64,000 bases of DNA. Source: Gammaproteobacteria bacterium. Its GTDB lineage: Bacteria > Pseudomonadota > Gammaproteobacteria > JAABTG01. The notes under the pieces were generated by a model, which saw only the letters and a list, made by a program, of their open reading frames with translations, was not told the DNA's origin and did no database searches. Below, in pieces: positions 13,248-43,574 of this stretch (position 1 is the stretch's first letter; the number at the start of each line of letters is the position of its first letter). The stretch covers positions 62,001 through 126,000 of the forward strand of contig JAXHLS010000006.1 of assembly GCA_034522055.1 (NCBI GenBank), read 5' to 3'. Made by a program: the position numbers and the translations under genes.

Positions 13248-14546
13248 TGTATGTTGGAGTTATCTGGCATGTTAGGTTTTTTGCCAGACACCGGGGAAGC
13301 CGTCCCGACCTGGAGGCAGGAAGTTTCTGACCTCGCGCGTAGATGGGCTCCCCGCCTCATTGCCGATTTCGAGGAGTATCGGGAAGCCAGCCTGGCTGGA
13401 CTTCGTATCACAAGGTCGAACCGGCAAGAAATGCGAGGTCGGGGAACCGGTGATCAGTGTGACGCAACCGACCCCAGAAGGGAAAGGAGGAACAACGATG
13501 AGCGTTTATATCGGCATTGATGTCGCCGCACGCTCCTTCGACTTGCTCTGCCGTCGTGACGGCAAGAACAGTAAGGTCTACACCTTCCCACAGACTGCCC
13601 AAGGTCACGCCCAGGCGATCCGCAAGCTGCAGGCGCTGCAACCGGCGGGCATCGTGCTGGAGGCCACTGGCATCTACTACCTGGACCTCGCGCTGGCCCT
13701 GCACGAGGCCGGGCTGCCGGTGTCCGTGATCAACCCGCGCAGCTTCCGGCATTTCGCCGAAATTACGCTGCGCGGCAGTAAGACCGACCCGCTCGACACC
13801 GCCCTGTTGGCCGAATACGCCGAACGCATGACGCCTAGGCGCTGGACCCCGCCGCCATCGACCTATCGGGCCCTACGCGACTTCGGCCGGCATCTCAACC
13901 GCCTAATGGACGCGCGGACCCAGGCCAAGAACCACCTGCACGCCCTGAAGGCGCAACGGGGCACGCCAGCCCTGCTGATCGAGGATGCCGAGGAAAGCAT
14001 CGCTCAACTGGACCAACGCATCGAACGGGTGCAACAAGCGGCCCAGGACTTGATCCAGCAGACCCCCGAGCTGGCGCAACATCAGGCCCATCTCTGTGCC
14101 GCCACCGGCCTCGCGGCAGCCAGCAGCCTGGCTCTGCTGGCCGAGCTATCCACACTGCCCAGGGACCTGAAGGCCAAACAAGTCGCTCGTCATGCTGGGC
14201 TGGACGTGCGCCTGCATGAGTCGGGCTCTAGCGTCCATCGACCCGGGCGCCTAGCCAAGACCGGCAATGCCTACCTGCGTAGCGCCCTGTACATGCCAGC
14301 GATGGTGGCGATCGTGCATGACCCGTATGCCAAGGCGTTCTATAACGCTCTGGTGGCCCGGGGCAAAAAGCGGATCCAAGCCTTGTGCGCCGTCATGCGC
14401 AAGTACCTCACCGGAATCTGGGCCTGCATGCAGCATGATCAGCCTTTCGACTCCTCCAAGCTGTTTAGCGATCAGCATCTCCAAACCGCTTGACAGGAAA
14501 CGGAGTATCTACATGTGTGCCCAAGGAATGGGCGGTGGGGGTGTCG
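13248..14546 (+). mobile_element. IS110-family insertion sequence (inferred ends)
   Basis: One transposase gene preceded by about 250 non-coding bases. Ends are inferred, not proven: REP-type DNA is interrupted after CCCGACC on the left and resumes with TAGGTCGGGCTGTAGGTCGG on the right. IS110-family elements lack classic inverted repeats and target duplications, and several are known to insert in REP palindromes. The long 5' non-coding end is where IS110-group elements encode their bridge RNA. Confidence 0.65.
13498..14493 (+). CDS. IS110-family transposase (DEDD recombinase)
   Basis: 331 residues. The N-terminal DEDD (RuvC-like) domain shows YIGIDVAARSFDLLCRRDGK, VLEATGIYY and SKTDPLDTALLAEYAERM. 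The C-terminal Tnp_20 part shows ATGLAAASSLALLAELS, RHAGLDVRLHESGSSVHRPG and KTGNAYLRSALYMPAM with the conserved serine. Length is normal and no frameshift is seen, so it may be active. AAAGGAGG precedes the ATG. Confidence 0.92.
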   Translation: MSVYIGIDVAARSFDLLCRRDGKNSKVYTFPQTAQGHAQAIRKLQALQPAGIVLEATGIYYLDLALALHEAGLPVSVINPRSFRHFAEITLRGSKTDPLDTALLAEYAERMTPRRWTPPPSTYRALRDFGRHLNRLMDARTQAKNHLHALKAQRGTPALLIEDAEESIAQLDQRIERVQQAAQDLIQQTPELAQHQAHLCAATGLAAASSLALLAELSTLPRDLKAKQVARHAGLDVRLHESGSSVHRPGRLAKTGNAYLRSALYMPAMVAIVHDPYAKAFYNALVARGKKRIQALCAVMRKYLTGIWACMQHDQPFDSSKLFSDQHLQTA

Positions 14547-15321: not shown

Positions 15322-15729
15322 TCACGCCGATAACCAGTTCTCTACGCGCAGGGACGGCACGCGCTCGAATTCGCGCGTGTTTGCGGTGACAAGGGTCAGG
15401 TCGGCGGCCAGCGCGTGTGCGGCGATCAACAGATCGTTCGGGCCGATGGGGGTACCCTGCCGCGTGAGGTGGTGACGGATCTCTGCGTAGCGTTGATCTG
15501 CGTGCGCTTCCAGCGGCAGGATCTCCAGGGCGGATAGCAACAGGTCGACCCGTTCGGAAAGTTGTTTCGAATCCGATTTCGCTGCGCCGTAGCAGAGTTC
15601 CGCTGCCACGACGATGCTGGTGCAGATCGAATCCTCGCCGACCTCGGCGATCCGGCTGGCCACCTGGCCCTTTGGTCGTTGGACAAGGTCCGAGATGATG
15701 TTCGTGTCGAGCAGATAGCGGAGCGCCAT
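15322..15729 (-). CDS. vapC: VapC-type PIN-domain ribonuclease toxin
   Basis: 135 residues. PIN-domain acidic residues are visible in YLLDTNIISDLV, VVAAELCYGA and PIGPNDLLIAAHALA, and the fold ends with TLVTANTREFERVPSLRVENW. The family cleaves RNA, often initiator tRNA. The gene starts 3 bases after the antitoxin stop, in the usual antitoxin-toxin order. A near-copy of its last 19 codons lies at 18864-18921. Confidence 0.9.
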   Translation of the reverse strand: MALRYLLDTNIISDLVQRPKGQVASRIAEVGEDSICTSIVVAAELCYGAAKSDSKQLSERVDLLLSALEILPLEAHADQRYAEIRHHLTRQGTPIGPNDLLIAAHALAADLTLVTANTREFERVPSLRVENWLSA

Positions 15730-19931: not shown

Positions 19932-20123
19932 GTGAAAGCAGCCAAGACCGAGACCACCACCGTGCGCATGGAGCCGGCCGTCAAGGCCGGGCTGAAGGCC
20001 ATGGCGGAGCGAGAACGGCGCAGTCTGGCCAATATGATCGAGGTGATGATCCGGGACTATTGCGGGCGGGAGGGGGTCGAGATCGGTGATGACCTGCCGG
20101 CTTCACGAGGGCAAAAGGGGTAA
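19932..20123 (+). CDS. ribbon-helix-helix (CopG/Arc-like) DNA-binding protein
   Basis: 63 residues, GTG start. TTTVRMEPAVKAGLKAMAER followed by RRSLANMIEVMIRDY is the ribbon-helix-helix pattern. It ends 8 bases before hsdM, so it is likely the first gene of the restriction operon and may autoregulate it, which would help delay restriction until methylation is complete. That role is inferred from position. Confidence 0.75.
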   Translation: MKAAKTETTTVRMEPAVKAGLKAMAERERRSLANMIEVMIRDYCGREGVEIGDDLPASRGQKG

Positions 20124-20131
20124 TTGGATTC

Positions 20132-22591
20132 ATGGCATTAAAAAAATCCCAGCTCTACAACTCCCTCTGGCAGTCCTGCGACGAGCTGCGCGGTGGCATG
20201 GATGCCTCGCAGTACAAGGATTATGTCCTGACGCTGCTGTTCATGAAGTACGTCAGCGACAAGCGGGATTCGCTGATCGAGGTCCCGGAGGGCGGGAGCT
20301 TCCAGGACATGGTCGCGCTCAAGGGCGACAAGGAGATTGGCGACAGGATCAACAAGATCATCGGCTGCCTGGCCGAGGCCAATGATCTGAAGGGCGTCAT
20401 CGACCAGGCCGACTTCAACGACGAGACCAGGCTCGGCTCCGGCAAGGACATGCAGGACCGGCTGTCCAAGCTGGTCGGCATCTTCGACCAGCTCGACCTG
20501 GGCGCCAACCGCGCCGACGGTGACGACCTGCTGGGCGATGCCTACGAATACCTGATGCGCCACTTCGCCACGGAGTCGGGCAAGAGCAAGGGGCAGTTCT
20601 ACACCCCGGCCGAGGTCTCCCGCGTGATCGCGCAGGTGGTGGGTATTGGTCCGGACACGCGCCAGGACCAGACGCTCTACGACCCGACCTGCGGCTCGGG
20701 CTCCCTGCTGCTGCGCGCCGCCTACGAGGCACCCACCGGCATGAGCATCTACGGTCAGGAGAACGACAACGCCACCTGGGCGCTGGCCAGGATGAACATG
20801 ATCCTCCACGATTATCCAACCGCCGAACTGTGGCGGGACAACACCCTGACCCGCCCCAATTTCAAGGACTCGTCCAAATCTGGCGACGGCGGCCTCAAGA
20901 CCTTCGACTTCGCCGTCGCCAATCCGCCGTTCTCCGCCAAGTCCTGGACCAACGGCCTGGACCCGGCCAACGACGAGTGGGGCCGCTTCGAGTACGGCAT
21001 CCCGCCGGCCAAGAACGGCGACTACGCCTTTCTGCTGCACCTGATCAAATCGCTCAAGTCCACCGGCAAGGGCGCCATCATCCTGCCCCACGGGGTGCTG
21101 TTCCGGGGCCACAAGGAGGCCGACATCCGCCACAACCTGGTCCGGCGCGGCCTGATCAAGGGCATCATCGGCCTGCCGGCCAACCTGTTCTACGGCACCG
21201 GCATCCCGGCCTGCATCCTGGTCATCGACAAGGAAGACGCGGATCGCCGCCAGGGTATCTTCATGATTGATGCCAGCCGCGAGTTCATGAAGGACGGCAA
21301 CAAGAACCGCCTGCGCTCGCGCGATATCCACAAGATCGTGGACGTGTTCAACAATCAGCGCGAGGTCCCACGCTATGCCCGCCTGGTGCCGCTGGCCGAG
21401 ATCGCAAGTCCGGCCAACGACTACAACCTCAACATCCCGCGTTACATCGACGCCAGCGAGCCGGAGGACCTGCACGATCTCCACGCGCACCTGAACGGTG
21501 GCACACCTAAGCGCGACGTGGACGCGCTTGAGCCCTACTGGTCCGTGCTGCCCGGCCTGCGCGAGGCGCTGTTCCGGGACAATGGCCGCCCCGGCTACCT
21601 GGAGCCCAAGGTGGAAACGCGGCAGGTCAAGCCCACGGTGCTGGAACATCCCGCGTTCAAGGATTTTACCGCCACCGTGGCCGAGGTGATCAACGGCTGG
21701 CAGGCCGCCCACCGCTCCGCCCTGCTGGTCCTGAAGCAGGGCGACAAGCCGCGGAAAGTGATCCACGCCCTGTCCGAGGATCTGCTCCGGCGCTTTGCCG
21801 GCGTGCCCCTGCTGGACCGCTACGCCGTCTACCAGCGCCTGATGAACTACTGGGCCGATGTCATGCAGGACGACGTCTACCTCATCGCTGCCGACGGCTG
21901 GCAGGAGGCGGCCCGGCCCCGCGGCGTGATCGAGAACAAGGAGCGCAAGATCAAGGAAGAGCCGGACCTGGTGATCGGCAGCGGCAGGAAGGCGAAGAAA
22001 TACAAGCTGGACCTGATCCCGCCGGGGCTGGTCATCGCCCGCTTCTTCGCCGACGCGCAGGCCCGGCTTGAAGCCCTACAGACTGAGCACGAATCAGCCA
22101 TCCGCGAGCTGGAGGAGTTCATCGAGGAGCAGGACGGCGAGGATGACCCGCTCAGCGAGGTCAGGAACGACAAGGGCAAGGTCACCAAGACTGAGATCCC
22201 CAGGCGTCTCAAGGCCCTCGAGGGCGAGCCGGAGGCCGAGGAGGAGATCGCCGTCCTCAAGCAGTGCAAGACGCTGATGGACGCCGAGGCCGATGCCAAA
22301 AAAGCCGTCAAGGACGCCGAGGCCGAGCTCAACCAGGCCGTGCTGGCCCGCTACGGCGAGCTCACCGAGGACGAGATCAAGCGACTCGCCGTGGGCGACA
22401 AATGGCTGGTCGACATCCGCGCCGCCATCGAGGCCGAGGTGGAACGGATCACCAACCGCTTGGCCTCCCGCGTGCGCGAGCTGGAGGAGCGCTACGCCGA
22501 GCCGCTGCCCGCCATCGAGCGGGAAGTGGTGGAATTGGCCGCCAGGGTGGCCGGGCATCTGGAGAAGATGGGGGTGCGGGCCGATGTCTGA
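20132..22591 (+). CDS. hsdM: type I restriction-modification methyltransferase subunit
   Basis: 819 residues. The helical HsdM N-domain (YNSLWQSCDELRGGMDASQY, YVLTLLFMKYVSDKR) precedes the N6-adenine methylase core: GQFYTPAEVSRVIAQ, SAM-binding DPTCGSGSLLLRA and catalytic NPPF (FAVANPPFSAKSW). The C-terminal ~300 residues are an extension with long charged helices (coiled coil at about 640-800), making it longer than the ~500-residue classic HsdM. It overlaps hsdS by 8 bases. Confidence 0.95.
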   Translation: MALKKSQLYNSLWQSCDELRGGMDASQYKDYVLTLLFMKYVSDKRDSLIEVPEGGSFQDMVALKGDKEIGDRINKIIGCLAEANDLKGVIDQADFNDETRLGSGKDMQDRLSKLVGIFDQLDLGANRADGDDLLGDAYEYLMRHFATESGKSKGQFYTPAEVSRVIAQVVGIGPDTRQDQTLYDPTCGSGSLLLRAAYEAPTGMSIYGQENDNATWALARMNMILHDYPTAELWRDNTLTRPNFKDSSKSGDGGLKTFDFAVANPPFSAKSWTNGLDPANDEWGRFEYGIPPAKNGDYAFLLHLIKSLKSTGKGAIILPHGVLFRGHKEADIRHNLVRRGLIKGIIGLPANLFYGTGIPACILVIDKEDADRRQGIFMIDASREFMKDGNKNRLRSRDIHKIVDVFNNQREVPRYARLVPLAEIASPANDYNLNIPRYIDASEPEDLHDLHAHLNGGTPKRDVDALEPYWSVLPGLREALFRDNGRPGYLEPKVETRQVKPTVLEHPAFKDFTATVAEVINGWQAAHRSALLVLKQGDKPRKVIHALSEDLLRRFAGVPLLDRYAVYQRLMNYWADVMQDDVYLIAADGWQEAARPRGVIENKERKIKEEPDLVIGSGRKAKKYKLDLIPPGLVIARFFADAQARLEALQTEHESAIRELEEFIEEQDGEDDPLSEVRNDKGKVTKTEIPRRLKALEGEPEAEEEIAVLKQCKTLMDAEADAKKAVKDAEAELNQAVLARYGELTEDEIKRLAVGDKWLVDIRAAIEAEVERITNRLASRVRELEERYAEPLPAIEREVVELAARVAGHLEKMGVRADV

Positions 22592-23960
22592 GTGCAGTCA
22601 GGCAATCAAACAGGACGCTGTGCGGGATGCCGCGCCGGCGTATCGAGTCAATGCACCTGAAGTTGCGCAGAACGAAGTGCCGCCGGGCTACAAGCGGACT
22701 GAGGTGGGAGTGATTCCAGAAGATTGGAGCGTAAAAGCACTTGCGCACTTTGTTAGTGCCCTTCAAGCGGGGGTGAGCGTCAACTCAATTGCATCGGACC
22801 AACCGATAAATGACACCCCGTCGGTTTTGAAGACGTCATGTATCCAGGCCGGCACCTTCTTTCCAAATCAAGCAAAGCCAATTTCGGCTAAGGACCACGA
22901 TCGGGCAAAGCTTAGTCCTAAGGCCGAAACAATACTGATTAGCCGGATGAACACGCCGGACCTGGTTGGCGAGTCCGGCTTCGTCGAAAAAGATTACGAG
23001 CATCTTTTCCTACCAGATCGAATCTGGATGACCATATTTAAGCAAGCTGTTAGGTTTTCGCCTAGGTGGCTTGCTTATATCCTGAGCAGTCCAGTTTATC
23101 GGAAGCACCTAAAAGAGTTTGCCACTGGAACAAGTGGCAGCATGAAGAACATTGCAAAAGGCAGTTTGTTGAATCTAAAGGTTCCTTGTCCTCCAGACAA
23201 TGAGCAAAGCGCCATCGCCACCGCCCTATCGGACGCGGACGCGCTAATCGAATCCCTCGATCGCCTGATCGCCAAAAAACGCGCCATCAAACAGGCCGCC
23301 ATGCAACAACTCCTCACCGGCCAGACCCGCCTGCCGGGCTTCACCGGCGAGTGGGAGACTAAGCAGTTGGGGGAAGTCGGACGATTTCGTGGTGGCAGTG
23401 GTTTCCCAACGATGCTCCAAGGCGAGACGTCTGGTAGGTATCCCTTTTTTAAGGTCTCAGACATGAACAACGAAGGGAACGAGACTTTTATGGAAGTCGC
23501 CAGCAACTATATTAGCGAGGTAACCAGGAAGCAGCTAGGAGCTATCGCTTTTCCAGCGAAGAGTATCGTCTTTGCAAAGGTTGGTGCAGCCGTTTTTTTG
23601 GAAAGGAAAAAAATCCTATCTAAGCCAGGCTGCTTGGATAACAACATGGCCGCTTTTGTGATCGAAGACGCTGCTGCAGATTTTCGGTTTATACATTACG
23701 TTTTACTCAGTACAAAGCTGGGAAGCCTTGTCAGCACCACCGCGCTGCCGTCCCTTAATGGCAAGGTGCTCGCTGGCATTGAGTGTCGCCTTCCCTCGCT
23801 CAATGAGCAGCAGGCCATCGCCACCGTCCTCTCCGAAATGGACACCGAAATCGAAGCCCTGAAACACCGCCGCGACAAGGCCCGCCAGATCAAGCAGGGC
23901 ATGATGCAGCAGCTTCTCACCGGGCTGGTCCGGCTGGTGACGCCGGAGGCGGCGGCATGA
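22584..23960 (+). CDS. hsdS: type I restriction-modification specificity subunit
   Basis: 458 residues with two target-recognition domains (about 25-215 and 255-420), each followed by a conserved helical spacer: NEQSAIATALSDADALIESL...QAAMQQLLTGQTRLPGF and NEQQAIATVLSEMDTEIEAL...GMMQQLLTGLVRLV. Base composition in both recognition domains is clearly AT-richer than in hsdM or hsdR, as expected for exchanged specificity modules. It starts inside the hsdM stop (ATGTCTGA overlap). Confidence 0.95.
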   Translation: MSECSQAIKQDAVRDAAPAYRVNAPEVAQNEVPPGYKRTEVGVIPEDWSVKALAHFVSALQAGVSVNSIASDQPINDTPSVLKTSCIQAGTFFPNQAKPISAKDHDRAKLSPKAETILISRMNTPDLVGESGFVEKDYEHLFLPDRIWMTIFKQAVRFSPRWLAYILSSPVYRKHLKEFATGTSGSMKNIAKGSLLNLKVPCPPDNEQSAIATALSDADALIESLDRLIAKKRAIKQAAMQQLLTGQTRLPGFTGEWETKQLGEVGRFRGGSGFPTMLQGETSGRYPFFKVSDMNNEGNETFMEVASNYISEVTRKQLGAIAFPAKSIVFAKVGAAVFLERKKILSKPGCLDNNMAAFVIEDAAADFRFIHYVLLSTKLGSLVSTTALPSLNGKVLAGIECRLPSLNEQQAIATVLSEMDTEIEALKHRRDKARQIKQGMMQQLLTGLVRLVTPEAAA

Positions 23961-24664
23961 GCGATCAGATTCATATCTATTGCGATGAGTCCTGTCATCT
24001 GGAGCACGATCACCAGCCCGCGATGGTATTGGGTGCCATCTCTTGCCCGGCCGACAGGCGGCAACGGCTCGGGCGAGCCATCAAGGCGCTGAAAGCACGG
24101 CACGGTATTCCGGCAAAGCGCGAGATCAAGTGGACGCAGGTGGCCCCGTCAACGCTGGCGTTTTATCGGGATCTGGTGTCGGTGTTTTTTGATGAGCCAT
24201 CGCTGGGCTTTCGCGGCGTCGTGGTACCGGACAAGCAGGTCCTGGACCATGACCGCTTCGATCAGGACCACGATGATTTCTACTACAAGATGTGGTGGCA
24301 GCTGCTAACCCGGTTGATCGACGATCAACACACCTTTCGCGTTTTCGTTGATATCAAGGATACCCATAGCAATACAAAGCTGGGCAAGCTGCAAGAAGTG
24401 CTGTGCAACACGCACTACGACTTCAACAATGAGCGAATCCAGAGCATCGAGGCCGTACGGTCGCACGATGTGCCGCTGGTACAACTGGCGGATGTCCTGA
24501 CGGGCTTGCTATCTCACCATTTCCGGGGCATCGAGGGCAGTCAGGCCAAGCAAGCACTGATTCAGCAACTGAGGGAGCGTAGCGGTTTGGGGTTGAATCG
24601 GTCCACGCTACCCGGTGCCCGGAAGTTCAATCTGTTCGTCTGGCGCGCGCGGGAGGCGGCATGA
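23957..24664 (+). CDS. DUF3800 protein in the hsd operon
   Basis: 235 residues. The start IHIYCDESCHLEHDHQPAMV with an early acidic DES motif, the downstream FVDIKDTHSN and the C-terminal LVQLADVLTGLLSHH are typical of DUF3800, a family with an RNase-H-like pattern of acidic residues often found beside defence genes. Biochemistry is not established. ATGA overlaps at both ends with hsdS and the next gene imply translational coupling. Confidence 0.85.
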   Translation: MSDQIHIYCDESCHLEHDHQPAMVLGAISCPADRRQRLGRAIKALKARHGIPAKREIKWTQVAPSTLAFYRDLVSVFFDEPSLGFRGVVVPDKQVLDHDRFDQDHDDFYYKMWWQLLTRLIDDQHTFRVFVDIKDTHSNTKLGKLQEVLCNTHYDFNNERIQSIEAVRSHDVPLVQLADVLTGLLSHHFRGIEGSQAKQALIQQLRERSGLGLNRSTLPGARKFNLFVWRAREAA

Positions 24665-25155
24665 CGGAGCCGCCCGAGCGGTTGCCGTTCGACGGCGACT
24701 GGCTGAATTATGTGGAGAGGGTATACGAGGCATTTGTCGAGTCCTTCGTCCGGCCTGAGGTCCGGTTTAAGGGGTGCCGCGTGACTGCGCCCTACAGGCC
24801 GGAAAGCCAAGGCAAGCATTTCAGCTTCTGGCACGTCATTTCGGAAGCACCGCACCCCGGTAACCGTAGGGAGGAAGACCGCATACCCGATCTCGCCCGC
24901 TGCGAGCGGATTCGTTGGATTGCGTGGGCCGTACGACAGGCTGACGCAGGTGAAGAAGGAGTGAACTGGTGGGAGAATGCGCGTGGGCGTGATACTCACG
25001 TCGTCATCTGGGCAGAAAAGCACGACTTTGCCGTTATCCTGGGCAAACGCCGGGATTACTACGTGCTGAAAACGGCCTATTGCAACCTTAGGTCGGGCCG
25101 CCGGAGGGCCTTCGAGAAGGAAAAGCAGAAATTTTGGAGGGGCCAGAGAGGCTGA
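24661..25155 (+). CDS. hypothetical protein in the hsd operon, possible BECR-fold nuclease
   Basis: 164 residues. After about 75 residues the pattern RIPDLARCERIRWIAWAVRQ, then RGRDTHVVIWAEKHDFAVIL and RRDYYVLKTAYC resembles the Barnase/EndoU/ColicinE5/RelE-like nuclease architecture (helix, then WENxR and a C-terminal beta hairpin with LxTAY). This fold call is tentative. It overlaps the DUF3800 gene by 4 bases, suggesting the two act together between hsdS and hsdR. Confidence 0.6.
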   Translation: MTEPPERLPFDGDWLNYVERVYEAFVESFVRPEVRFKGCRVTAPYRPESQGKHFSFWHVISEAPHPGNRREEDRIPDLARCERIRWIAWAVRQADAGEEGVNWWENARGRDTHVVIWAEKHDFAVILGKRRDYYVLKTAYCNLRSGRRRAFEKEKQKFWRGQRG

Positions 25156-25312
25156 AGCCCCGCGACATTACTGCCGAAGGGCTTCGGATGCTCCTTCCGC
25201 TAAAGGCGGATGAGACGACGAGTATTATAGGTCCGGAGGCGAGCAGATTCAATCCCACCGATGCCGGCGGTGCAGCTTCTTGGTGGTGATTTGCAAAACA
25301 GTTAAAGAACAG

Positions 25313-28300
25313 ATGGTTATGGAAATTTCCACGGTCGGTCAACGCGAACGTCTCACCCAGGCGCAGGTGCTGAAGTTCTTTCAGGAGCACCTGGGTTATC
25401 GCTATCTGGGCGACTGGAAGGATCGCGATGGCAACAGCCATGTCGAGGCGGATCTGCTGCGCGACTGGCTGAGGCGGCAGGGCTTTGATGAGCGCATCAT
25501 CAGCCGCGCCCTGCGCGAGTTGGATCAGGCAGCGGCCATTTCCGGCAGCAAGACGCTGTTTGATGCCAATCGCGCCGTCTACGAAAAGCTCCGCTATGGC
25601 GTACACATCAAGCCCTCTGTGGAAGAGCAGACGATCACCGTCTGGCTGATCGACTGGGATAACCCGGAGAACAACGACTTCGCCGTGGCCGAGGAGGTCA
25701 CGCTGGCGGGGGTCAACACCAAGCGCCCGGACTTGGTGCTCTACGTCAACGGCATCGCCCTGGGGGTGCTGGAACTCAAGCGTTCCACGGTGGCGGTGGC
25801 CGAGGGCATCCGCCAGAACCTGGACAACCAGAAGCGCGAGTTCATCCAGCCCTTCTTCGCCACGGTGCAGTTGCTGATGGCCGGCAACTCCACCGAAGGC
25901 CTGCGCTACGGCGTGATCGAGACGCCCGAGAAGTACTGGATGGAGTGGAAGGAACCTTCGGAGATGGAGGACCCGCTGGAGCGCGGGCTGGACCAGCTCT
26001 GTAGCAGGCAACGGCTGCTGGAGCTGGTCCACGACTTCGTGGTCTTCGACGCCGGGATCAAGAAGACCTGTCGGCACAACCAGTACTTCGGCGTGCGCGC
26101 CGCCCGGGACTACGTGCAGGGCCGCCAGGGCGGCATCATCTGGCACACCCAGGGCAGCGGCAAATCGCTGACCATGGTCTGGCTGGCGAAGTGGACCCGC
26201 GAGCATGTCACCGATGCCCGGGTGCTGGTGATCACCGACCGCACCGAGCTCGACGAGCAGATCGAGAAGGTCTTCAAGGGCGTGGACGAGCAGATCTACC
26301 GCGCCAAGAGCGGCGCGGACCTGATCGCGGTGCTGGACCGCAGCGAGGAGTGGCTGATCGCCTCGCTGATCCACAAGTTCGGTGCGTCCGAGGAGGGCGA
26401 TGTCGATGCCTTCATTCAGGACATGGAGAGCCACCTGCCCAGGGGCTTCCGGGCCAGGGGCAACCTGTTCGTGTTCGTGGATGAATGCCATCGCACCCAG
26501 TCCGGCAAGCTGCACGAGGCCATGAAGGCCCTGCTGCCGGCTGCCACCCTGATCGGTTTTACCGGCACGCCGCTGCTGAAAAAGGACAAGAAGAAGAGCG
26601 TCGAGGTCTTCGGGCCCTATATCCACACCTACAAGTACGACGAGGCGGTGCACGACGGCGTGGTGCTGGACCTGCGCTACGAGGCGCGCGACATCGACCA
26701 GCACATTACGTCACAGGAGAAGATCGACCAGTGGTTCGAGCTCAAGACCCGGGGCCTGAACGACTACGCCCGGGCCCAGCTCAAGAAACGCTGGGGCACC
26801 CTGCAAAAGGTGCTTAGCTCCCGGGACCGGCTGGAGAAGATCGTCTCCGACATCCTGTGGGATATGGCCACCCGCGACCGGCTGTTGAGTGGCCACGGTA
26901 ACGCCATGCTGGTGGCGGGCAGCATCTACTCGGCCTGCCGGCTGTTCGAGATGTTCCAGGCGACCGAGCTCAAGGGCAAGTGCGCCATCGTGACGTCCTA
27001 CGTACCTTCCACCGCCGACATCAAGGGTGAGGCCACGGGCGAGGGCGAAACGGAGAAGCTGCACCAGTATGGGATCTACCGCAAGATGCTGGCCGAGCAC
27101 TTCAATGAACCGGAACAAACGGCCGTGCACAAGGTGGAGAAATTCGAGCAGGAGGTGAAGAAGCGCTTCATCGACGAGCCCGGCCAGATGAAGCTGCTCA
27201 TTGTGGTGGACAAGCTGCTCACCGGCTTCGACGCCCCGCCGGCCACCTATCTCTACATCGACAAGCAGATGCGCGACCACGGCCTGTTTCAGGCCATCTG
27301 CCGGGTCAATCGGCTGCACACCGAGGACAAGGAGGTCGGCTACATCATCGACTACAAGGACCTGTTCAAATCCCTGGAGCAATCTATCCAGGACTATACC
27401 GGCGGCGCCTTCGATGCCTTCGACGCCGAGGATGTGGAGGGTCTGCTGGAGGATCGCCTGAGCAAGGCGAGGGAACGCCTGGAGGAGACCCGGGAAGCCG
27501 CCAAGGCGCTATGCGAGCCGGTGGAGCCGCCCAAGGACAGCCCGGCCTACCGCCGCTATTTCGTGGGCCCGAGCGACGCGCCCGGGGTACAGAAGGACAA
27601 CGAGCCCAAACGTGTGGCCCTGTACAAGCATGTGGGCGCCTTCCTGCGTGCCTACGCCAACCTGGCCAACGAGATGGACCAGGCCGGCTACAGCGAGGCC
27701 GAGGCGGCCAAGATCAAGGCCGAGGTCGAGCACTACGAAAGGGTCCGGGAAGAGGTTAAGCTGGCCAGCGGCGACTACATCGACATGAAGCTCTATGAGC
27801 CGGCCATGCGGCATCTGCTGGATACCTATATCCGCGCCGAGGAGAGCGAGAAGCTCTCGGCATTCGACGATATGACCCTGGTGGATCTGATCGTCACCCG
27901 GGGTGAGGAGGCGGTGGACAGCCTGCCGTCTTCGATAGCGGGCGATCGGGAGGCCATGGCCGAGACCATCGAGAACAACGTGCGCCGGCTGATCGTCGAC
28001 GAGACGCCGGTCAACCCGAAATACTACGAGAGGATGTCCACCCTGCTGGATCATCTGATCGAGCAGCGGCGCAAGGAAGCGCTGGAATACAGGGAATATC
28101 TGCGCCGCATCGTGGAGCTGACCCGGCAAGTTGCCAGGCGGGAAGAGGAGAGCGCGTATCCGCCGGGCATCGATACACCGGCCCGTCAGGCCCTCTACGA
28201 CAACCTGGGCGAGGATGCCTCGCTGGCCCTGCGGCTCGACGAGAAGATACGGTCCGTGAAGAAGGCCGACTGGCGGGCCAACAAGTTCAAGGAGCGCGAG

Positions 28301-28405
28301 GTGCGAAACGCCATCGCGTCGGTTCTGCAGAGCCAGGTGCGGGATACGGATTTGCCGGACGTAGACGCGGTATTCGAACTCGTGAAGAACCAGAATGGCT
28401 ACTGA
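25313..28405 (+). CDS. hsdR: type I restriction endonuclease/translocase subunit
   Basis: About 1030 residues. The N-terminal PD-(D/E)xK nuclease is visible in KRPDLVLYVNGIALGVLELK. The SF2 translocase has Walker A GSGKSLTMVWLAK, DECH box (FVFVDECHRTQSGKL) and GFTGTPLLKKD; later motifs include VDKLLTGFDAPPATYLY and QAICRVNRL. The C-terminal helical region binds the methylase core. ATGs at 25313 and 25319 are equally plausible starts. No disruption, so the system appears intact. Confidence 0.95.
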   Translation: MVMEISTVGQRERLTQAQVLKFFQEHLGYRYLGDWKDRDGNSHVEADLLRDWLRRQGFDERIISRALRELDQAAAISGSKTLFDANRAVYEKLRYGVHIKPSVEEQTITVWLIDWDNPENNDFAVAEEVTLAGVNTKRPDLVLYVNGIALGVLELKRSTVAVAEGIRQNLDNQKREFIQPFFATVQLLMAGNSTEGLRYGVIETPEKYWMEWKEPSEMEDPLERGLDQLCSRQRLLELVHDFVVFDAGIKKTCRHNQYFGVRAARDYVQGRQGGIIWHTQGSGKSLTMVWLAKWTREHVTDARVLVITDRTELDEQIEKVFKGVDEQIYRAKSGADLIAVLDRSEEWLIASLIHKFGASEEGDVDAFIQDMESHLPRGFRARGNLFVFVDECHRTQSGKLHEAMKALLPAATLIGFTGTPLLKKDKKKSVEVFGPYIHTYKYDEAVHDGVVLDLRYEARDIDQHITSQEKIDQWFELKTRGLNDYARAQLKKRWGTLQKVLSSRDRLEKIVSDILWDMATRDRLLSGHGNAMLVAGSIYSACRLFEMFQATELKGKCAIVTSYVPSTADIKGEATGEGETEKLHQYGIYRKMLAEHFNEPEQTAVHKVEKFEQEVKKRFIDEPGQMKLLIVVDKLLTGFDAPPATYLYIDKQMRDHGLFQAICRVNRLHTEDKEVGYIIDYKDLFKSLEQSIQDYTGGAFDAFDAEDVEGLLEDRLSKARERLEETREAAKALCEPVEPPKDSPAYRRYFVGPSDAPGVQKDNEPKRVALYKHVGAFLRAYANLANEMDQAGYSEAEAAKIKAEVEHYERVREEVKLASGDYIDMKLYEPAMRHLLDTYIRAEESEKLSAFDDMTLVDLIVTRGEEAVDSLPSSIAGDREAMAETIENNVRRLIVDETPVNPKYYERMSTLLDHLIEQRRKEALEYREYLRRIVELTRQVARREEESAYPPGIDTPARQALYDNLGEDASLALRLDEKIRSVKKADWRANKFKEREVRNAIASVLQSQVRDTDLPDVDAVFELVKNQNGY

Positions 28406-29123
28406 GCACAGCCATATCGAGGTCAGCGGCATCCCCGTCGAGATCTGCCGCAAGGCGATCAAGAACCTCCACGTCGGCGTCTACCCGCCAAACGGCAAGG
28501 TTCGCGTGGCCGCGCCCCTGCACCTGGATGACGAGGCCGTCCGCCTGGCGGTTGTTTCCCGGCTGGCCTGGATCGAGCGGCAGCGGAAAAGCTTCGGGCG
28601 TCAGGAACGTCAGTCCGCCAGAGAAATGGTGACCGGAGAAAGCCACTACTTCGAAGGCAAGCGGTATCGCTTGAATGTGGTGGAAGGGCCCGGCGTACCC
28701 CGGGTTCGCCTCGTGAACAACAGCACGCTTGTGCTCAAGGTGCCGCCCGGTACGGACCGTGCGGCGCGCCAGCAGGTCCTCGACCGCTGGTACCGGCGCC
28801 GGCTGAAAGCCCGGATTCCAGAGCTGCTCGGACGCTGGGAGTCCGTCGTCGGTGTTAATGTTGCCAATTGGCGTATAAAGAGAATGAAGACCCGATGGGG
28901 AAGCTGCAATATCGACGCCAGACGCATCTGGCTGAACCTTGAGCTGGCGAAAAAAGCGCCTGTCTGCCTGGAATATCTGCTTGTGCATGAAATGGTTCAC
29001 TTCCTCGAGCGCCACCACAACGACCGCTTTCGCCAGCTGATGGATCAGCTCATGCCGGACTGGCGCCTGCGCCGGGACGAGCTGAACCAGGCTCCACTGG
29101 CACATGAGAACTGGACGTATTGA
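28395..29123 (+). CDS. YgjP-like zinc metallopeptidase (DUF45/M48)
   Basis: 242 residues. The gluzincin motif HEMVHFLERHHNDRF, preceded by KTRWGSCN and LEYLLVHE, is the WLM/DUF45 signature. It overlaps the hsdR end by 11 bases, and such peptidases are often linked to type I hsd operons, where the role is unknown; proteolytic control of HsdR is a possibility only. Its stop is followed by about 365 bases without a gene. Confidence 0.9.
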   Translation: MATEHSHIEVSGIPVEICRKAIKNLHVGVYPPNGKVRVAAPLHLDDEAVRLAVVSRLAWIERQRKSFGRQERQSAREMVTGESHYFEGKRYRLNVVEGPGVPRVRLVNNSTLVLKVPPGTDRAARQQVLDRWYRRRLKARIPELLGRWESVVGVNVANWRIKRMKTRWGSCNIDARRIWLNLELAKKAPVCLEYLLVHEMVHFLERHHNDRFRQLMDQLMPDWRLRRDELNQAPLAHENWTY

Positions 29124-29488
29124 TCGAACTGCTTATTCGCCAGATGGAGCTGATGGCAAGGTGACGAGGCGGATTTGTAGATGGCTGTAAAAACCGGCGC
29201 ATATCTGGCGAAGGATTGATTGTGAGGCCGATCAGTCGCTGCACCGGCAGGTGGGCGGCGGCGGGTGGTAGACGGTGTTCGATGCTTGATATCAGGTGCA
29301 CTTGCCCCAGCGGCGGGCATCTTTGAGAGCAGCAAGAGTTGCTGCTCGCGCAGCGGCGAGGCGATGAAGCTGAAGCGACGCTCAGAAACTACGCGTGATG
29401 TTTTGGTGCATTGGTGTCTATGTGCCAAGCTGTGGCGGGCCGATTTAAGAGAGGTTTGGCAAGTGAGGTTTAGCAGGGGAGGCTTGGT
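29124..29488. other. intergenic region with dispersed ~85-bp repeat (29175-29262)
   Basis: 29175-29262, beginning TTGTAGATGGCTGTAAAAAC and including CGCATATCTGGCGAAGGATT, recurs at 42822-42906 with about 85-90 percent identity by eye. No gene is supported. The repeat may be a small non-autonomous element or ncRNA. Confidence 0.55.
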
Positions 29489-30303: not shown

Positions 30304-31585
30304 CTTAGGCATCCCCTCATTTTTAACTCAAATAATACCGAAGGCATCGCGGAACACGCGTTGCTCGTGGAGGAGTTCGGTGAACTTCTCGAATAACGGG
30401 CGCAATCGCTCCTCAGGCCAATTCGGAATATGTTCGTAGAGCATCAGTCCCTGGCGAAACAGCGAGTGGGTACGCCGCTTAACGGTATTTGCCTTCAGCC
30501 AGCGATCGTAGCCCAACGCCTCTCCCGCGGCACCGAGCAGCGACAGCAAGGCGATGGCCAGTGCACTGATCAGCAACAACCGGTCGCGGCGCTCCGGGCG
30601 ACCGATCCGCAGCGAGGACATCCCCATGCCGAAGCGCAGATCCTTGATGTCGCGGAAGCTCGTCTCAATCCCCCAGCGCTTGGCGTAGTAACCGATGAGC
30701 GTCTTCGCCTTCGCCTCGCGGTCACTGGCAGCCAGGCACCACGGCTCCTTCATGTCCTTGGCCTGCACACACACGACCGTGGCCACGGGCAGGGCTTGGG
30801 AGTCGGTCAGCGTCGCATCGCGCAACGTGCGCGCCCGGCCATGGGTACCCACCCACTTCGCTGCCTTGCGCCGCTCGCCCTTGGCGTTGGTGATGTAATA
30901 CTGGCTGCGCAACCGCACCACATAGCCGAAACCCAACTCCTCGCTCAGCAGCTTCAACAGCTTGCAGTCCGCAAAGCCCCGATCGGCCACGATCGTCACC
31001 GCCACCCCCGCCGGCAGCACCTCATAGAGCCGACACAGCAACGCATCCTCGTAATCCGTCTGCCGGCCCTTGAGGGTGGCAGCCTCCACCGTCTGCCACA
31101 GCAACGGTGTGGCACGACCATGACGGGTCAGCATCGACAGCACCAGCGTCTCGTGCCCGTCATTGGCAAAGCTCGTCCAGTCCAGCGCCACCACCACCTT
31201 GGTACGTGCGCCGATAACATAGGGCACCCAGCACGCAAAGAACCTAGCGAGTTTGATGCCGCGGTTGCTCAGCAGCCGGTCCACCTGCTTCACACCATGC
31301 TTGCTCAGCGTCCCCTGGGCATGCGCCAGACCCTGACCGATGGCGTGCACTGCCAGCGAAGCGCTGGCCAGCACTCCCCAAGCCGCGTTCGCCAGCGACA
31401 ACACGCGCTTGGCGTGCAAGTCGCCGTCGAAAAGCGTATCAATGAACTCGATGATGTCATCCTGCCGAAGCGCCTGTGCTGCTTTCATCGCCGGTCCTCA
31501 TGGTGATTGTGAGGACTCCAAGAATGATCTTCAGATCAACAAGTTGCAAGCCATTGTTGAGATTAAAAATGAGGGGATCCCTGAG
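30304..31585 (-). mobile_element. IS4-family insertion sequence, 1282 bp
   Basis: Terminal inverted repeats of about 23 bp share the 16-bp core ATCCCCTCATTTTTAA (30311-30326) and its complement (31563-31578). A 9-bp target duplication AAAGCAACC flanks it at 30295-30303 and 31586-31594. One complete transposase gene. All hallmarks of a recent intact insertion. Confidence 0.9.
30328..31488 (-). CDS. IS4-family DDE transposase
   Basis: 386 residues, uninterrupted. DDE residues: first D in VVALDWTSFANDGHETLVLS, second in TIVADRGFADCKLL, and the IS4 YREK signature in YAKRWGIETSFRDIKDLRFG. The N-terminal part is a helical DNA-binding domain. It probably encodes an active enzyme, given intact ends and target duplication. 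Confidence 0.92.
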   Translation of the reverse strand: MKAAQALRQDDIIEFIDTLFDGDLHAKRVLSLANAAWGVLASASLAVHAIGQGLAHAQGTLSKHGVKQVDRLLSNRGIKLARFFACWVPYVIGARTKVVVALDWTSFANDGHETLVLSMLTRHGRATPLLWQTVEAATLKGRQTDYEDALLCRLYEVLPAGVAVTIVADRGFADCKLLKLLSEELGFGYVVRLRSQYYITNAKGERRKAAKWVGTHGRARTLRDATLTDSQALPVATVVCVQAKDMKEPWCLAASDREAKAKTLIGYYAKRWGIETSFRDIKDLRFGMGMSSLRIGRPERRDRLLLISALAIALLSLLGAAGEALGYDRWLKANTVKRRTHSLFRQGLMLYEHIPNWPEERLRPLFEKFTELLHEQRVFRDAFGII

Positions 31586-36454: not shown

Positions 36455-36961
36455 CTATTTGCTCAACATGGCCTTGAGATCCTTGAGCATCAGAAACAGG
36501 TGATACGGATCGGTCGGGCTGGGCTCGAATTCCCACGATTCGTACCAGTGCCGCGCCACATCGTCCTTGGCATGCACCAGCAGGCAGCGAATACCGGCGA
36601 TGTCGGCAGCCTGCGCCGTGCGCAGCAGTGCGTCCTTGAGCAAGGCCTGGCCCAGCCCCTTGCGCTGATGCTCCTTGTCCACCGCGAGCCGGGCCAGGAT
36701 CATGACCGGCACCGGGTGACGCGCCAGCCCCTTCATCACTCTTGAGGGCACGACTTCGGGATCGACACTGCCGACGGCCAGGCTGTAGAAGCCGACCACC
36801 ACCTCACCTTGGCAGCAGACGTAGGTCTGCGCGCTGTTGGCCTTCTGGTTGACGAGCGCGTAGCGCTGCAGAAACTGGTTTAGGGCTGCCTGGCCGCAGT
36901 CGAAAGCATCGACCTGATCCGTTGCGGCCAGCTTGCGAACGGGTGCGTAACCACTGCTCAA
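36455..36961 (-). CDS. GNAT acetyltransferase toxin (TacT-like)
   Basis: 168 residues. FDCGQAALNQFLQRYALVNQ at the N-terminus and the acetyl-CoA site ILARLAVDKEHQRKGLGQAL match the TacT class that acetylates aminoacyl-tRNA and blocks translation; HWYESWEFEPSPTDPYHLFL closes the fold. It overlaps the DUF1778 antitoxin by 4 bases, in the expected order. Confidence 0.9.
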   Translation of the reverse strand: MSSGYAPVRKLAATDQVDAFDCGQAALNQFLQRYALVNQKANSAQTYVCCQGEVVVGFYSLAVGSVDPEVVPSRVMKGLARHPVPVMILARLAVDKEHQRKGLGQALLKDALLRTAQAADIAGIRCLLVHAKDDVARHWYESWEFEPSPTDPYHLFLMLKDLKAMLSK

Positions 36962-37236
36962 TCAAGCACTCCGGGTTCACGCAGCAACTTCTTCATGCGA
37001 GGCTTGGCTGTGACCGGCCGATCCAGCGCTTCCTGAAACGCCTGCCACTGCGTCTCGTCCAGCACGAACTGGCGACGATCCGCTAGCGTTTGCGCTGCCG
37101 CCGTCACGCCTGCGTCGAGCAGGAACTCGCTGACGTTCTTGTGGCAGGCGCGTGCGGCTTCTTGCAGCAGCTGCTTGACCGGCGTGCTTGCACGAACGTC
37201 AATGCGTTCAGTCTTGGAAAGATTCAGGGTGCTCAT
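36958..37236 (-). CDS. DUF1778 antitoxin (TacA-like)
   Basis: 92 residues. Ribbon-helix-helix core KTERIDVRASTPVKQLLQEA and NVSEFLLDAGVTAAAQTLAD, then the toxin-wrapping tail DETQWQAFQEALDRP. The start at 37236 follows GGAGGGGCACC. The pair probably autoregulates. Confidence 0.9.
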   Translation of the reverse strand: MSTLNLSKTERIDVRASTPVKQLLQEAARACHKNVSEFLLDAGVTAAAQTLADRRQFVLDETQWQAFQEALDRPVTAKPRMKKLLREPGVLD

Positions 37237-37670
37237 GGTGCCCCTCCGGATTTTGGATGCTCTCATTGTATTGTCCGGACGATGTCCTGACAAGTGATTT
37301 CTCGTCTGCCCTCAGCCATGCACCTGCATCCATCCGTGTTGCAATGTGTCGGTACTGGTCGATAACTGCCGACAAAACGCAACGACGGTGTTTCCCTCGC
37401 CACCCCATGCTGCAATCCAACCACTTGATTGGTCTGCGCGTAACATGTGGATTTACAAGGCGCACGATTCAGCCGTTTGCGGACTTCGGGCCATTCGTGG
37501 CGAGCGACGTTGGAGCGAGGAATCGCCAGGAGAGAGCGGAATGTGGGCCGGAATGGCCAATTCGGGCGGCTACCGAAGTCCGCAGGCTTCCGCAGGAACC
37601 CCCAACAACCGCGGGAACTGGCGCAAACAGACAAGAAAAAACCCCAACCGAGAACGGTTGGGGTTTCAAT
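37237..37670. other. intergenic region, probable island-end remnant
   Basis: About 430 bases with no gene. 37350-37390 (GTCGGTACTGGTCGATAACT...) resembles the AbiEi upstream region at 42536-42575, suggesting a lost abiE-type locus. A strong hairpin ends the interval. Confidence 0.4.
37639..37666. terminator. bidirectional hairpin terminator
   Basis: Stem AAACCCCAACCG / CGGTTGGGGTTT with AGAA loop, flanked by A-run and T-run. It sits just downstream (in ssrA sense) of att-like copy B, as a former ssrA terminator would. Confidence 0.75.
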
Positions 37671-37757
37671 ATTGATGGAGGCGGCGACAATCACATTACC
37701 TTGTAAAGCAATGGCTTAAAATGCGAAAGTTTCGAAATGCCCCCGAAAATACCCCCA
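37671..37757. repeat. ssrA-type att-like repeat, copy B
   Basis: ATTGATGGAGGCGGCGACAA, then CTTAAAATGCGAAAG and the paired CCCCC boxes ATGCCCCCGAAAATACCCCC. Same layout as copies A, C and D. Confidence 0.75.
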
Positions 37758-37846
37758 CGCTACCCGTGTTAGGAATTGTGAACTTGAGATAGCCAATCTG
37801 GCTTGCCGTCGTTCCCAAGAGTGGTCCTTTGCGCGGCCCCATGCGT

Positions 37847-38179
37847 TCATGCCGCCCGGTTGCCCAACTCGCTGAGTTTCTCCAGCGTATCGGGAAACTT
37901 CCTCACCATCAGTATCAATGCCGCGGCCTGGGCATTGGGCCGCGCTCGACCTTGCTCCCAGTTCTCCAGGGTACGTGTCGATACGCGCAGGCGGCGGGCA
38001 AACACGGCACGGGAGACGTGCATACGTTCGCGCGTGTCGCGGATGAGATCCGCGTCCACGTCGAGCGGGGGTAGGTCCTCGACCTCATGCGAACGCAGGG
38101 TGATCTTTCCCTCGCGCTGCTGCTGCATGGCATCGACGCCTTCCATCAGTTCATCGAACAACTTGCGCTTTTGTTTCAT
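37847..38179 (-). CDS. higA: HigA-like XRE antitoxin
   Basis: 110 residues. The C-terminal helix-turn-helix reads LIRDTRERMHVSRAVFARRL and RVSTRTLENWEQGRARP, with an N-terminal toxin-binding part. It overlaps the toxin gene by 4 bases (toxin first, the HigBA order). Confidence 0.87.
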   Translation of the reverse strand: MKQKRKLFDELMEGVDAMQQQREGKITLRSHEVEDLPPLDVDADLIRDTRERMHVSRAVFARRLRVSTRTLENWEQGRARPNAQAAALILMVRKFPDTLEKLSELGNRAA

Positions 38180-38496
38180 GACTTTCGTCTCCCAGCCTCC
38201 AACTCGGCCTGGATGGTTTTCTTCAATACTTTCTTCTCTTCGGTCGTCAGGTCGGCGGGTTCATCCTTGTCATAAAGAGTGAAGAACCAGATCTGGCGAT
38301 CGGCCGTCAGATAGTAGTAGATGACCCTCAATCCACCTCGCTTGCCTTTGCCGCGACGGGCGTCTTCCCAACGAACCTTGCGAAACCCGCCGGTGCCGGG
38401 CATCACGTCACCCAGTTCCGGATTCTCCATCAACGCGCGCTGCAATTCGCGGTAGCTCTCGTCGGTTAGATAGTCTCCGAGGAGGCGCGTGAACAA
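38176..38496 (-). CDS. higB: HigB/RelE-type toxin
   Basis: 106 residues. FTRLLGDYLTDESYRELQRA, GTGGFRKVRWEDARRGKGKR and GGLRVIYYYLTADRQIWFFT fit the HigB-1/RelE mRNA interferase type. The TTG at 38496 is the only standard codon near the expected start; homologues begin a few residues earlier (VFLETPLFTRLL is in frame just upstream), so a non-standard CTG start is possible. Confidence 0.82.
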   Translation of the reverse strand: MFTRLLGDYLTDESYRELQRALMENPELGDVMPGTGGFRKVRWEDARRGKGKRGGLRVIYYYLTADRQIWFFTLYDKDEPADLTTEEKKVLKKTIQAELEAGRRKS

Positions 38497-41846: not shown

Positions 41847-41913
41847 GGCGCACATCCGTGTGCGCCACCCTTCGGGCAGTTTCGCTGTGCAAAACATTCA
41901 TCCTGATGTTTTG

Positions 41914-43096: not shown

Positions 43097-43558
43097 ATGG
43101 AGAACTCTGCACGCCTGTACAACTGCGCCCGTTGTCATCGTCAGGTGATGATCTGCAGTGGCTGTGACCGCGGCAACATCTATTGCCCTGAGGGGTGTGC
43201 GCAGGTGGCACGAAGCGCGTCTCTGCGGGCCGCCGGCTGGCGCTACCAGCAGAGCCGCCAGGGCCGGCACAAGCATGCCGAGCGGCAACGCCGCTACCGG
43301 GCGAGAAGGCAGAAAGTGACGCATCAGGGTTCCCCGGCCCCGCCCCCTCATGATCCACTACCCCCCGTTCCGGCGAGGCCGGCTGGCCGCCGCGGTGCGG
43401 ATGGCGCGCCGATGATGGCGCCCATTCGCTGCCACTTCTGCGGCCGTGAGTGCGGACCTTTCCTGCGTACCGGCCCGCTTCATCGCGCCACCGCCGCTGC
43501 TGCGCTTGGAACAGTCACCCGACAGGGGCCACCAGGCGCCCGGGCTCAGCCCCCTTGA
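43097..43558 (+). CDS. IS21-associated small zinc-ribbon-like protein
   Basis: Up to 153 residues. The first ~75 contain [25 protein letters not shown] and a basic stretch ([16 protein letters not shown]), a zinc-ribbon/DNA-binding look. The remaining Pro/Arg-rich part overlaps the istA leader and may not be coding. It lies between the IS left end and istA, so it is likely a passenger or regulatory gene of this IS21 subgroup. Confidence 0.55.
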
Positions 43559-43574
43559 GCCGGCCGGCCACGAG

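Follow-up and report, generated by a model that had tools for sequence, protein, structure and literature searches.

What are two small genes doing between the specificity and restriction genes of a type I restriction-modification (R-M) operon? The operon is on contig JAXHLS010000006.1 of a Gammaproteobacteria bacterium (assembly GCA_034522055.1), within a stretch of 64,000 nucleotides (positions 62,001 to 126,000) that we call the window. The two genes, which we call A and B, overlap each other and lie between hsdS and hsdR. We found that this pair is already catalogued, as PDC-M04, a candidate defence system in PADLOC-DB 2.0, and that it is carried by phage P1, as rlfA and rlfB. Although the confidence is only a little better than even, we think that A-B is a horizontally moving two-gene RNase module in a cargo slot of the operon, with B as the effector and A as its partner, and that it acts as a toxin or in abortive defence. 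What is new here is the assignment of folds to both proteins, the union of PDC-M04 with P1 RlfAB, and the comparison of the slot across related operons.

The pair is a catalogued defence candidate and is carried by phage P1

Protein A matches DUF3800 (PF12686; E = 5.1e-17 and 63.4 bits, compared to a cut-off of 21). Protein B on its own has no Pfam match at E ≤ 1. In PADLOC-DB, A matches PDC-M04A (E = 1.3e-88) and B matches PDC-M04B (E = 2.6e-50), over nearly their full lengths and in adjacent genes. (The assignment consists of profile matches for both proteins.) In all, 12 PDC-M04B models match B at E ≤ 1. PDC presumably stands for phage defence candidate, and the class reportedly comes from work by Payne and colleagues on genes that are embedded in defence systems. 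The library entry for PDC-M04 names no mechanism.

Among phage records, B has 8 matches, all from phages of the P1/P7 type (RlfB or RapB), at 38-39% identity. A has 12 matches: 8 are of the P1/P7 type (RlfA or RapA), at about 46% identity, and the other 4 are more distant and include a Bifidobacterium phage protein that is annotated as RlfA. The P1 genes have the same order and overlap as the genes in the window, and the proteins align over most of the query (46% identity over 97% for A, and 38% over 96% for B). P1's proteins match PDC-M04A (E = 1e-95) and PDC-M04B (E = 1.3e-51) as well. Because the same PADLOC models are matched, we consider the window's pair and P1 rlfAB (RapA-RapB of P7) to be one family. 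The P1 copy differs in its setting: it lies outside any R-M operon, in a lytic replicon region behind a C1 operator, and it is labelled as possibly linked to replication.

Sequence searches of the PDB, with each protein and with each profile, turned up nothing credible. (The best hit for the A profile was a designed repeat protein, with E = 0.0085, which looks like chance.)

Protein A is predicted to resemble RNase H2, and protein B a BECR-type RNase

The model of A has a predicted local distance difference test score (pLDDT) of 88.7 (from an alignment of 21 sequences). When the model was searched with Foldseek, all 23 chains at E ≤ 0.001 were RNase HII, H2, or HIII (best E = 8.8e-7). Using VIA-align, the best Z was 13.8, to RNase HII/H2, with PIWI domains from rank 19. 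The rows for RNase HII, H2, and HIII are about 9-16% identical to A. Among 71 homologues, Asp10 and Glu11 are invariant (69 of the 69 that align there), as are Asp132, Asp179, Ser169, and Lys198 (71 of 71). RNase HII has a catalytic set of Asp, Glu, Asp, and Asp; going by their order, Asp10, Glu11, Asp132, and Asp179 of A probably correspond to this set. We predict that A adopts an RNase HII/H2-like fold and that it may share the acidic catalytic residues. However, RNase HII/H2 is a housekeeping enzyme, and A is encoded by an accessory gene next to a BECR-like protein. An earlier reading of the window from its sequence alone (the sequence-only reading) had named A as a DUF3800 protein and left its role open; the family stands, and the model now makes it RNase H2-like. 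Passages in two papers place DUF3800, as an RNase H fold that has undergone catalytic rearrangement, beside rare CRISPR effectors (PMC10910872, PMC12669027).

For B, the sequence-only reading had proposed a BECR-nuclease-like pattern, and the model agrees with this. It is confidently predicted (pLDDT of 92.6 and predicted template-modelling score of 0.88, from an alignment of 20 sequences). It has helices up to residue 96 (with a short strand at 39-42), then four strands at 101-108, 111-118, 123-129, and 133-141, and then a C-terminal helix. BECR RNases combine an N-terminal helical part with a meander of four strands, and they commonly have a histidine in a helix and a serine or threonine in the fourth strand (passages in PMC3482391 and PMC5512222). 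In B, His58 lies in the helix at 54-60 and is found in 66 of 66 homologues, and position 138, in the strand at 133-141, is threonine in 62 and serine in 6 of 68 homologues. (We counted conservation over 69 homologues and left out gaps.) Arg80 (68 of 68) and Arg83 (65 of 68) are conserved too. A lack of conserved catalytic residues would have refuted the earlier proposal for B; given the invariant His58 and Thr/Ser138, the proposal is not refuted.

Similarity to known structures is weaker. Foldseek found no PDB match to the model of B at E ≤ 0.001. A second look with VIA-align, which took in Foldseek's top chains only, gave a best Z of 5.5, which is below the level that this tool calls distinctive. 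Among the 24 best entries, from Z = 5.5 downward, 17 are toxin-antitoxin (TA) entries (RelE, HigB, YafQ, BrnT, ParE, and others), 4 are either of colicin D or of an E. coli ribonuclease-inhibitor complex whose residue numbers are those of colicin D, and 1 is Cami1. The other 2 are titled as hypothetical (HP0892 and HP0894), and we take these to be RelE-type toxins. Rank 25 is Ego3. (The absence of a family from these fold lists does not exclude that family.) Because the Z is low, the fold call leans on the agreement of residues: the layout of the model and the conserved His58 and Thr/Ser138 support the prediction that B is BECR-like. B shares the predicted helix, the four-strand meander, and the His and Ser/Thr positions with colicin D, the PBECR domains, and RelE/HigB, but it has no significant sequence match to them, and its model has additional helices at the N and C termini. 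Its partner is also different, as it is a DUF3800 protein instead of an immunity protein or a RelB-type antitoxin. In a library of viral structures, the one significant match to B is an uncharacterised phage protein, which is uninformative about function.

A and B travel together

B was found in 4 of 274 sampled genomes from the class, and A (at E ≤ 1e-30) in 16 of 398 sampled genomes from the phylum, with this genome included in both counts. None of 14 control genomes had a match to A or B. A scan of genome contigs with the alignment found 19 loci, in several bacterial phyla and on one 5.7-kb contig that is binned as a Thermoplasmatales archaeon. (The loci are mostly from metagenome assemblies, and single taxon assignments may be wrong.)

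After dropping duplicates, we typed 39 loci. A and B are adjacent in 35 of them, and three of these pairs have one broken gene: in L012, A is frameshifted and B is intact, while in L023 and L024, B is frameshifted. L068 and L070 have A without B. L018 and L072 have B without this A, and in L018 no A is detectable; L072 holds only pieces, with other DUF3800-like fragments upstream. In 15 of the 35 pairs, an in-frame start of B overlaps the stop of A by exactly 4 nt. Given how often the homologues are adjacent and overlap in this way, the arrangement of A and B goes beyond chance.

Viruses also carry the pair. In IMG/VR, 55 loci encode A, and 36 of the 54 that we examined are distinct. B is directly downstream in 32 of these 36; 2 reach the contig edge, and 2 lack a recognised B, one of which carries a truncated B-like frame. 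(A viral scan with B alone as the query found nothing, but the alignment query did match.) Across 34 loci, the distances of A and of B are correlated (r = 0.93, and none of 2,000 permutations was as high), so A and B travel as a unit.

There is a second A-B pair in the same genome, at L055:8494-9692. Its A is 31% identical and its B is 17% identical to those in the window, which rules out a duplicate of the window's pair. This second pair lies outside any recognised hsd operon, about 3 kb from a large MMPL/cNMP/GGDEF protein.

The family is not tied to type I R-M

The sequence-only reading had suggested that the pair could be a fail-safe for when restriction fails, which would make it dependent on R-M. 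Across the family, we do not see this dependence. A homologue of an Hsd protein is encoded on the same strand within 1.5 kb of 14 of the 39 loci, and the other 25 have no counted type I hsd gene within that distance. This count of 14 is a minimum, since contig edges lie close to several loci and, at L013, an hsd operon is found 2.5 kb upstream. (The count leaves out three flagged loci: L012 and L065, which have methyltransferases of more than 1200 amino acids, and L014, where the HsdR match has E = 3e-4.) Among the distinct viral A loci, 4 of 36 have an hsd gene within 2.5 kb. The overlap between hsdS and A is exactly 4 nt in five loci (the window, L008, L023, L058, and L073).

Elsewhere, the neighbours include AbiH (L022), a SNF2-type helicase with a large methyltransferase (L012), a PDC-S64 protein (L061), and a serine recombinase (L025), as well as ordinary genes such as CTP synthase (L015) and an aminotransferase (L016). 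Of 22 neighbouring proteins that were searched, 10 matched no family and 12 matched one; none of those 12 belongs to a replication family.

A tree built from 37 A proteins requires 12 changes of the R-M label, compared to a mean of 11.4 for shuffled labels, and well-supported branches force at least 7 changes. Since the label changes no fewer times than when shuffled, the R-M context is not inherited family-wide. On a local scale it is inherited, in the supported clade of the window's A with L007 and L011. The copies in P1 and at the second locus in this genome are also without R-M, and an obligate link to R-M was not found across the family. As many loci have the pair but no R-M, we rejected an R-M accessory subunit as its general role; in the clade of the window's A, that idea is only weakened. 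At L007, the nearest relative, which is on a contig that is binned as archaeal, a piece of HsdR (221 amino acids, at the end of the contig) matches the window's HsdR at only E = 1e-13, so the pair and its R-M system seem not to move together.

The hsdS-hsdR interval is a cargo slot

The same hsdM family (E ≤ 1e-200) is present in 13 of 398 sampled genomes, including this one. In the fetched stretches of the 12 others, neither A nor B was found. The hsdS-hsdR interval was readable in 9 of these. (We dropped L087, which agrees with L088 in genus, gene sizes, and scores; in L086, neither hsdS nor hsdR was recognised; and L092 reaches the end of its contig.) Of the nine readable operons, six have other genes in the interval (Table 1), two (L089 and L093) are empty, and L085 has about 1 kb with no recognised gene. 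L090 and L091 are from one genus, and their Zeta-toxin-like genes are directly before hsdR. As nine related operons lack the pair, this slot takes alternative cargo and the R-M system manages without A-B. We therefore see A-B as cargo, a cassette housed in this slot, and not as a subunit of the R-M system, though the closest relatives of the window's pair are also in R-M operons.

This survey fits with the earlier suggestion of an extra effector within a type I operon, as do two published cases. TgvAB is a two-gene insert in a type I operon that protects only if both genes are present and that restricts phages with modified DNA (passages in PMC11411939). TgvAB resembles A-B as an insert of two genes and is a separate defence, and GmrSD genes, to which TgvAB belongs, occupy the same hsdS-hsdR slot in two of the related operons (L088 and L094). 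However, TgvAB is a type IV DNA restriction system, and its proteins are unrelated to A and B. The other case is PrrC, an anticodon nuclease in the type IC operon EcoprrI, which is freed if the T4 protein Stp blocks restriction (passages in PMC3874165, PMC2610378, and PMC12707154). PrrC is likewise an RNase effector whose gene is embedded in a type I R-M operon, but it belongs to another family, with ABC ATPase motifs (PMC2610378), and A-B also lives without R-M. By analogy, PrrC is a model of how A-B might be wired, and TgvAB is a model of what A-B more likely is.

The replication label of P1 rlfAB

In P1, rlfA and rlfB follow repL and oriL and have a C1 operator upstream. The P1 record notes that they are "possibly associated with lytic replication", and PHROG 16230 is labelled "replication protein". 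The passages of the P1 literature that we consulted give no function for rlfA or rlfB beyond this label (PMC10695390, PMC9603915, PMC6906374). In these sources, both genes are non-essential by CRISPR interference (PMC10695390), and P1-like elements have eight highly variable regions, of which rlfA-rlfB-pmgF is one (PMC9603915; see also PMC6906374).

Among plasmid records, 516 match P1's repL and 101 match rlfAB (or 102, for a protein search with B), although the two lists were not cross-tabulated. We looked at ten repL records that were picked for their absence from the listed rlfAB records, and rlfAB was absent from all ten. Between repL and the baseplate genes, four of them have a small hypothetical gene and hokD (with IS421 in two of the four), two have a ParA family gene and DUF3892, one has Ail/Lom, and three have hypothetical genes only. 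Among 5,426 E. coli genomes, 121 have rlfAB, in 123 places on plasmids and 4 on chromosomes. Overall, rlfAB in P1 looks like cargo and not like a replication function, and the replication label, which rests on position, looks wrong. Because the genes are non-essential in P1 and there are repL records without rlfAB, we rejected replication as the main role.

How A-B might work

We favour a toxin because of the fold class of B, the overlapping gene pair, the other occupants of the slot, and a report on Legionella. (In a paragraph on antitoxin genes in PMC7811196, a strain-specific DUF3800 gene of Legionella, HL77S_00079, which may or may not be of A's subfamily, is scored as essential.) A small adjacent pair of overlapping genes is also a trait of type II TA systems. 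B would be a metal-independent endoribonuclease with a BECR fold, of the colicin D/PBECR kind, and would act as the effector. A, which is encoded by the overlapping upstream gene, would most likely bind B or B's trigger and keep B silent until infection; in the best-supported reading, A would be a partner, regulator, or sensor beside B as the effector. Infection would then release B, and B would cut RNA that is needed for translation (tRNA would be our first guess). This would shut down the cell and so stop the phage. The pair would be found in R-M operons because defence genes share such slots, and its position would give it shared expression and shared transfer with restriction. The result would be a layered defence, with A-B not a physical subunit of the R-M system.

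A broader claim is more tentative, and we would put it somewhat short of an even chance. RlfAB might be a new immune module of two RNases, with an RNase H2-like sensor or regulator and a colicin D-like RNase. It would have sat in P1 for decades under a replication label, while moving between prophages, phage-plasmids, and distant phyla and in and out of the hsdS-hsdR cargo slot. It would help P1 to exclude competing phages, and in the R-M slot it would be the death arm of a layered defence.

Several observations weigh against A-B as a toxin module. The broken genes do not have the asymmetry that is expected of a toxin and its antitoxin, as B is frameshifted in L023 and L024, A is frameshifted with B intact in L012, and L018 has B with no detectable A. 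A retains the full acidic set and may be an active nuclease itself, which would be unusual for an antitoxin. B's best Z is just 5.5, with no significant Foldseek match in the PDB, and the ParE toxins that are among its VIA-align entries share the fold but are not known to be RNases. By sequence, PBECR2 (PF18810) matches only 2 of the 20 members of the B alignment (best E = 0.011), and KH_dom-like (0.0045) and RIN1 (0.0094) each match one member with a lower E value, which we take as chance. Lastly, the window's A forms a supported clade with the A of L007 (68% identical) and of L011, and all of these are embedded in R-M operons.

We considered four other explanations. A and B could be two cooperating nucleases that hit the invader directly, with no TA logic: an active, RNase H2-like A would cut RNA:DNA hybrids or other phage nucleic acid, and B would be a second nuclease or an RNA-binding helper. 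The RNase HII/H2 fold and invariant acidic set of A fit with this, as do the DUF3800 nucleases with an RNase H fold beside the V-A2 and VI-F CRISPR effectors (passages in PMC10910872 and PMC12669027) and the need for both genes in TgvAB's action on phages with modified DNA (PMC11411939). But the active-site layout of B is that of metal-independent RNases, which often attack cellular RNA (passages in PMC3482391 and PMC5512222), and for A, no trigger or cue for telling self from non-self is visible. We consider direct attack by two nucleases to be unlikely, but a serious candidate. Alternatively, A-B could be a purely selfish TA pair that stabilises its operon or plasmid without defending against phages. 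Here the mechanism would overlap with the one that we propose, and only the purpose would differ. A small, overlapping, mobile pair that occurs on phage-plasmids could well be an addiction module, and hokD takes P1's rlfAB position in 4 of the 10 sampled records. On the other hand, the pair is repeatedly in or beside defence loci (type I operons, AbiH in L022, and the helicase-methyltransferase genes of L012), and the hsdS-hsdR slot otherwise holds restriction and toxin genes, so we think that addiction alone is quite improbable.

The HsdMSR complex of the operon might hold A-B silent until a phage inhibits restriction, much as in EcoprrI. Besides the precedent of PrrC, this would make sense of the ATGA link between hsdS and A and of the exact 4-nt overlaps in five loci, and the smallest well-supported clades around the window's A (of 2 and 3 rows) are entirely R-M embedded. 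That the window's closest relatives are all in R-M operons slightly favours this kind of guard, but it is still a poor bet: an hsd gene is beside at least 14 of 39 loci and 4 of 36 distinct viral A loci, the context changes many times over the whole tree of A, and the HsdR fragment at L007 is only a weak match (1e-13). We give the least credence to a role in DNA replication, which is very unlikely. It would explain the position of the P1 genes after repL and oriL and behind the C1 operator, and the PHROG label, but not why rlfAB is non-essential in P1 (PMC10695390), why far more plasmid records have repL than rlfAB and the ten sampled ones carry other genes there, or why no replication family appears among the 12 neighbours that matched a family.

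Layout of the operon and its surroundings

The order of genes on the forward strand is hsdM-hsdS-A-B-hsdR, from the open reading frames and profile matches (Table 1). The reading frames of A and B and both ATGA overlaps are exactly as in the sequence-only reading. The junction sequence shows that the start of hsdS, at 22584, overlaps the stop of hsdM. The longest frame for hsdR begins at 25280, and its probable start is the ATG at 25313 or 25319. The translational coupling of A and B to hsdS that had been proposed is plausible from these overlaps, yet A and B each have their own GGAGG, which permits other modes of translation. An internal promoter or terminator was rejected, as counts of such sites are close to the shuffled mean. 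An RNA antitoxin (as in type III TA systems) of a described family was also rejected: no Rfam family reached the gathering score within 20000-29200.

Table 1. Genes and junctions of the type I R-M operon in the window, and genes in the hsdS-hsdR slot of related operons.
Feature	Position	Strand	Evidence or remark
hsdM, type I methyltransferase subunit, 819 amino acids	20132..22591	+	PF02384 2.2e-100; HsdM_N 8.5e-18; PADLOC MTase_I PDLC03027
hsdS, specificity subunit, two Methylase_S stretches	22584..23960	+	PF01420 1.3e-22
ATGA overlap, hsdS stop / A start	23957..23960	+	GGAGG at 23945-23949
Gene A, DUF3800 protein, 235 amino acids; PDC-M04A; P1 RlfA homologue; predicted RNase HII/H2-like fold	23957..24664	+	
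ATGA overlap, A stop / B start	24661..24664	+	GGAGG at 24652-24656
Gene B, 164 amino acids; PDC-M04B; P1 RlfB homologue; predicted BECR-type fold	24661..25155	+	
hsdR, type I restriction subunit	25313..28405	+	HSDR_N 7.6e-40; SWI2_SNF2 1.6e-69; TIGR00348 8.3e-163
YgjP-like metallopeptidase gene, overlaps hsdR	28395..29123	+	PF01863 8e-61
L084 slot: Schlafen-AlbA_2 with HATPase_c_4 domain			
L088 slot: GmrSD + Schlafen-AlbA_2 gene			
L090 slot: Zeta toxin	L090:4026-4781		
L091 slot: Zeta toxin	L091:4782-5681		
L094 slot: GmrSD_N protein			
L095 slot: unknown gene + Schlafen-AlbA_2 gene			

The three middle genes differ from hsdM and hsdR in their G+C content at third codon positions: hsdS has 0.60, A has 0.71, and B has 0.70, against 0.90 in hsdM and 0.88 in hsdR. 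Because of these lower values, we infer that hsdS-A-B was exchanged as a block, although specificity genes may differ for other reasons. A gene of 234-244 amino acids follows hsdR in all of the related operons whose hsdR is readable, 9 of 9 (the YgjP-type Pfam identification covers the window's copy only). The YgjP-like gene could therefore be a fixed component of this R-M lineage.

Transposases of the IS110, DDE_Tnp_1, and IS21 (with IstB) types, at 13360-14493, 30328-31488, and 43446-45868, flank the R-M operon on both sides, as in a mobile defence island. The window also has a second conflict or defence cluster, in which an AbiEii nucleotidyltransferase (40932-41897, reverse strand) adjoins a TOTE conflict-type protein with an archaeo-eukaryotic primase and a helicase (38554-40914, reverse strand). 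Possible TA genes are at 36455-38496 and 15322-15729 (both on the reverse strand): these include a GNAT acetyltransferase, a helix-turn-helix gene beside a RelE-type gene, and a PIN-domain protein. The gene for transfer-messenger RNA (tmRNA) is at 48536-48905, on the reverse strand; tmRNA genes are a frequent integration site for islands.

Implications

The reading of A-B as a mobile RNase module offers a testable mechanism for a catalogued defence candidate that was seemingly unexplained, and for two genes of P1, a textbook phage, that have likewise lacked an explanation. Homologues of RlfB may carry the "replication protein" label (PHROG 16230) for no reason other than their position. Because P1 is easy to handle, a quick answer could be had as to whether RlfAB is an RNase toxin pair and whether it acts in defence. 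More broadly, in the slot survey, toxin genes and type IV restriction genes take each other's place at a single operon position, between hsdS and hsdR, which lends support to the view that back-up effectors are housed in R-M operons.

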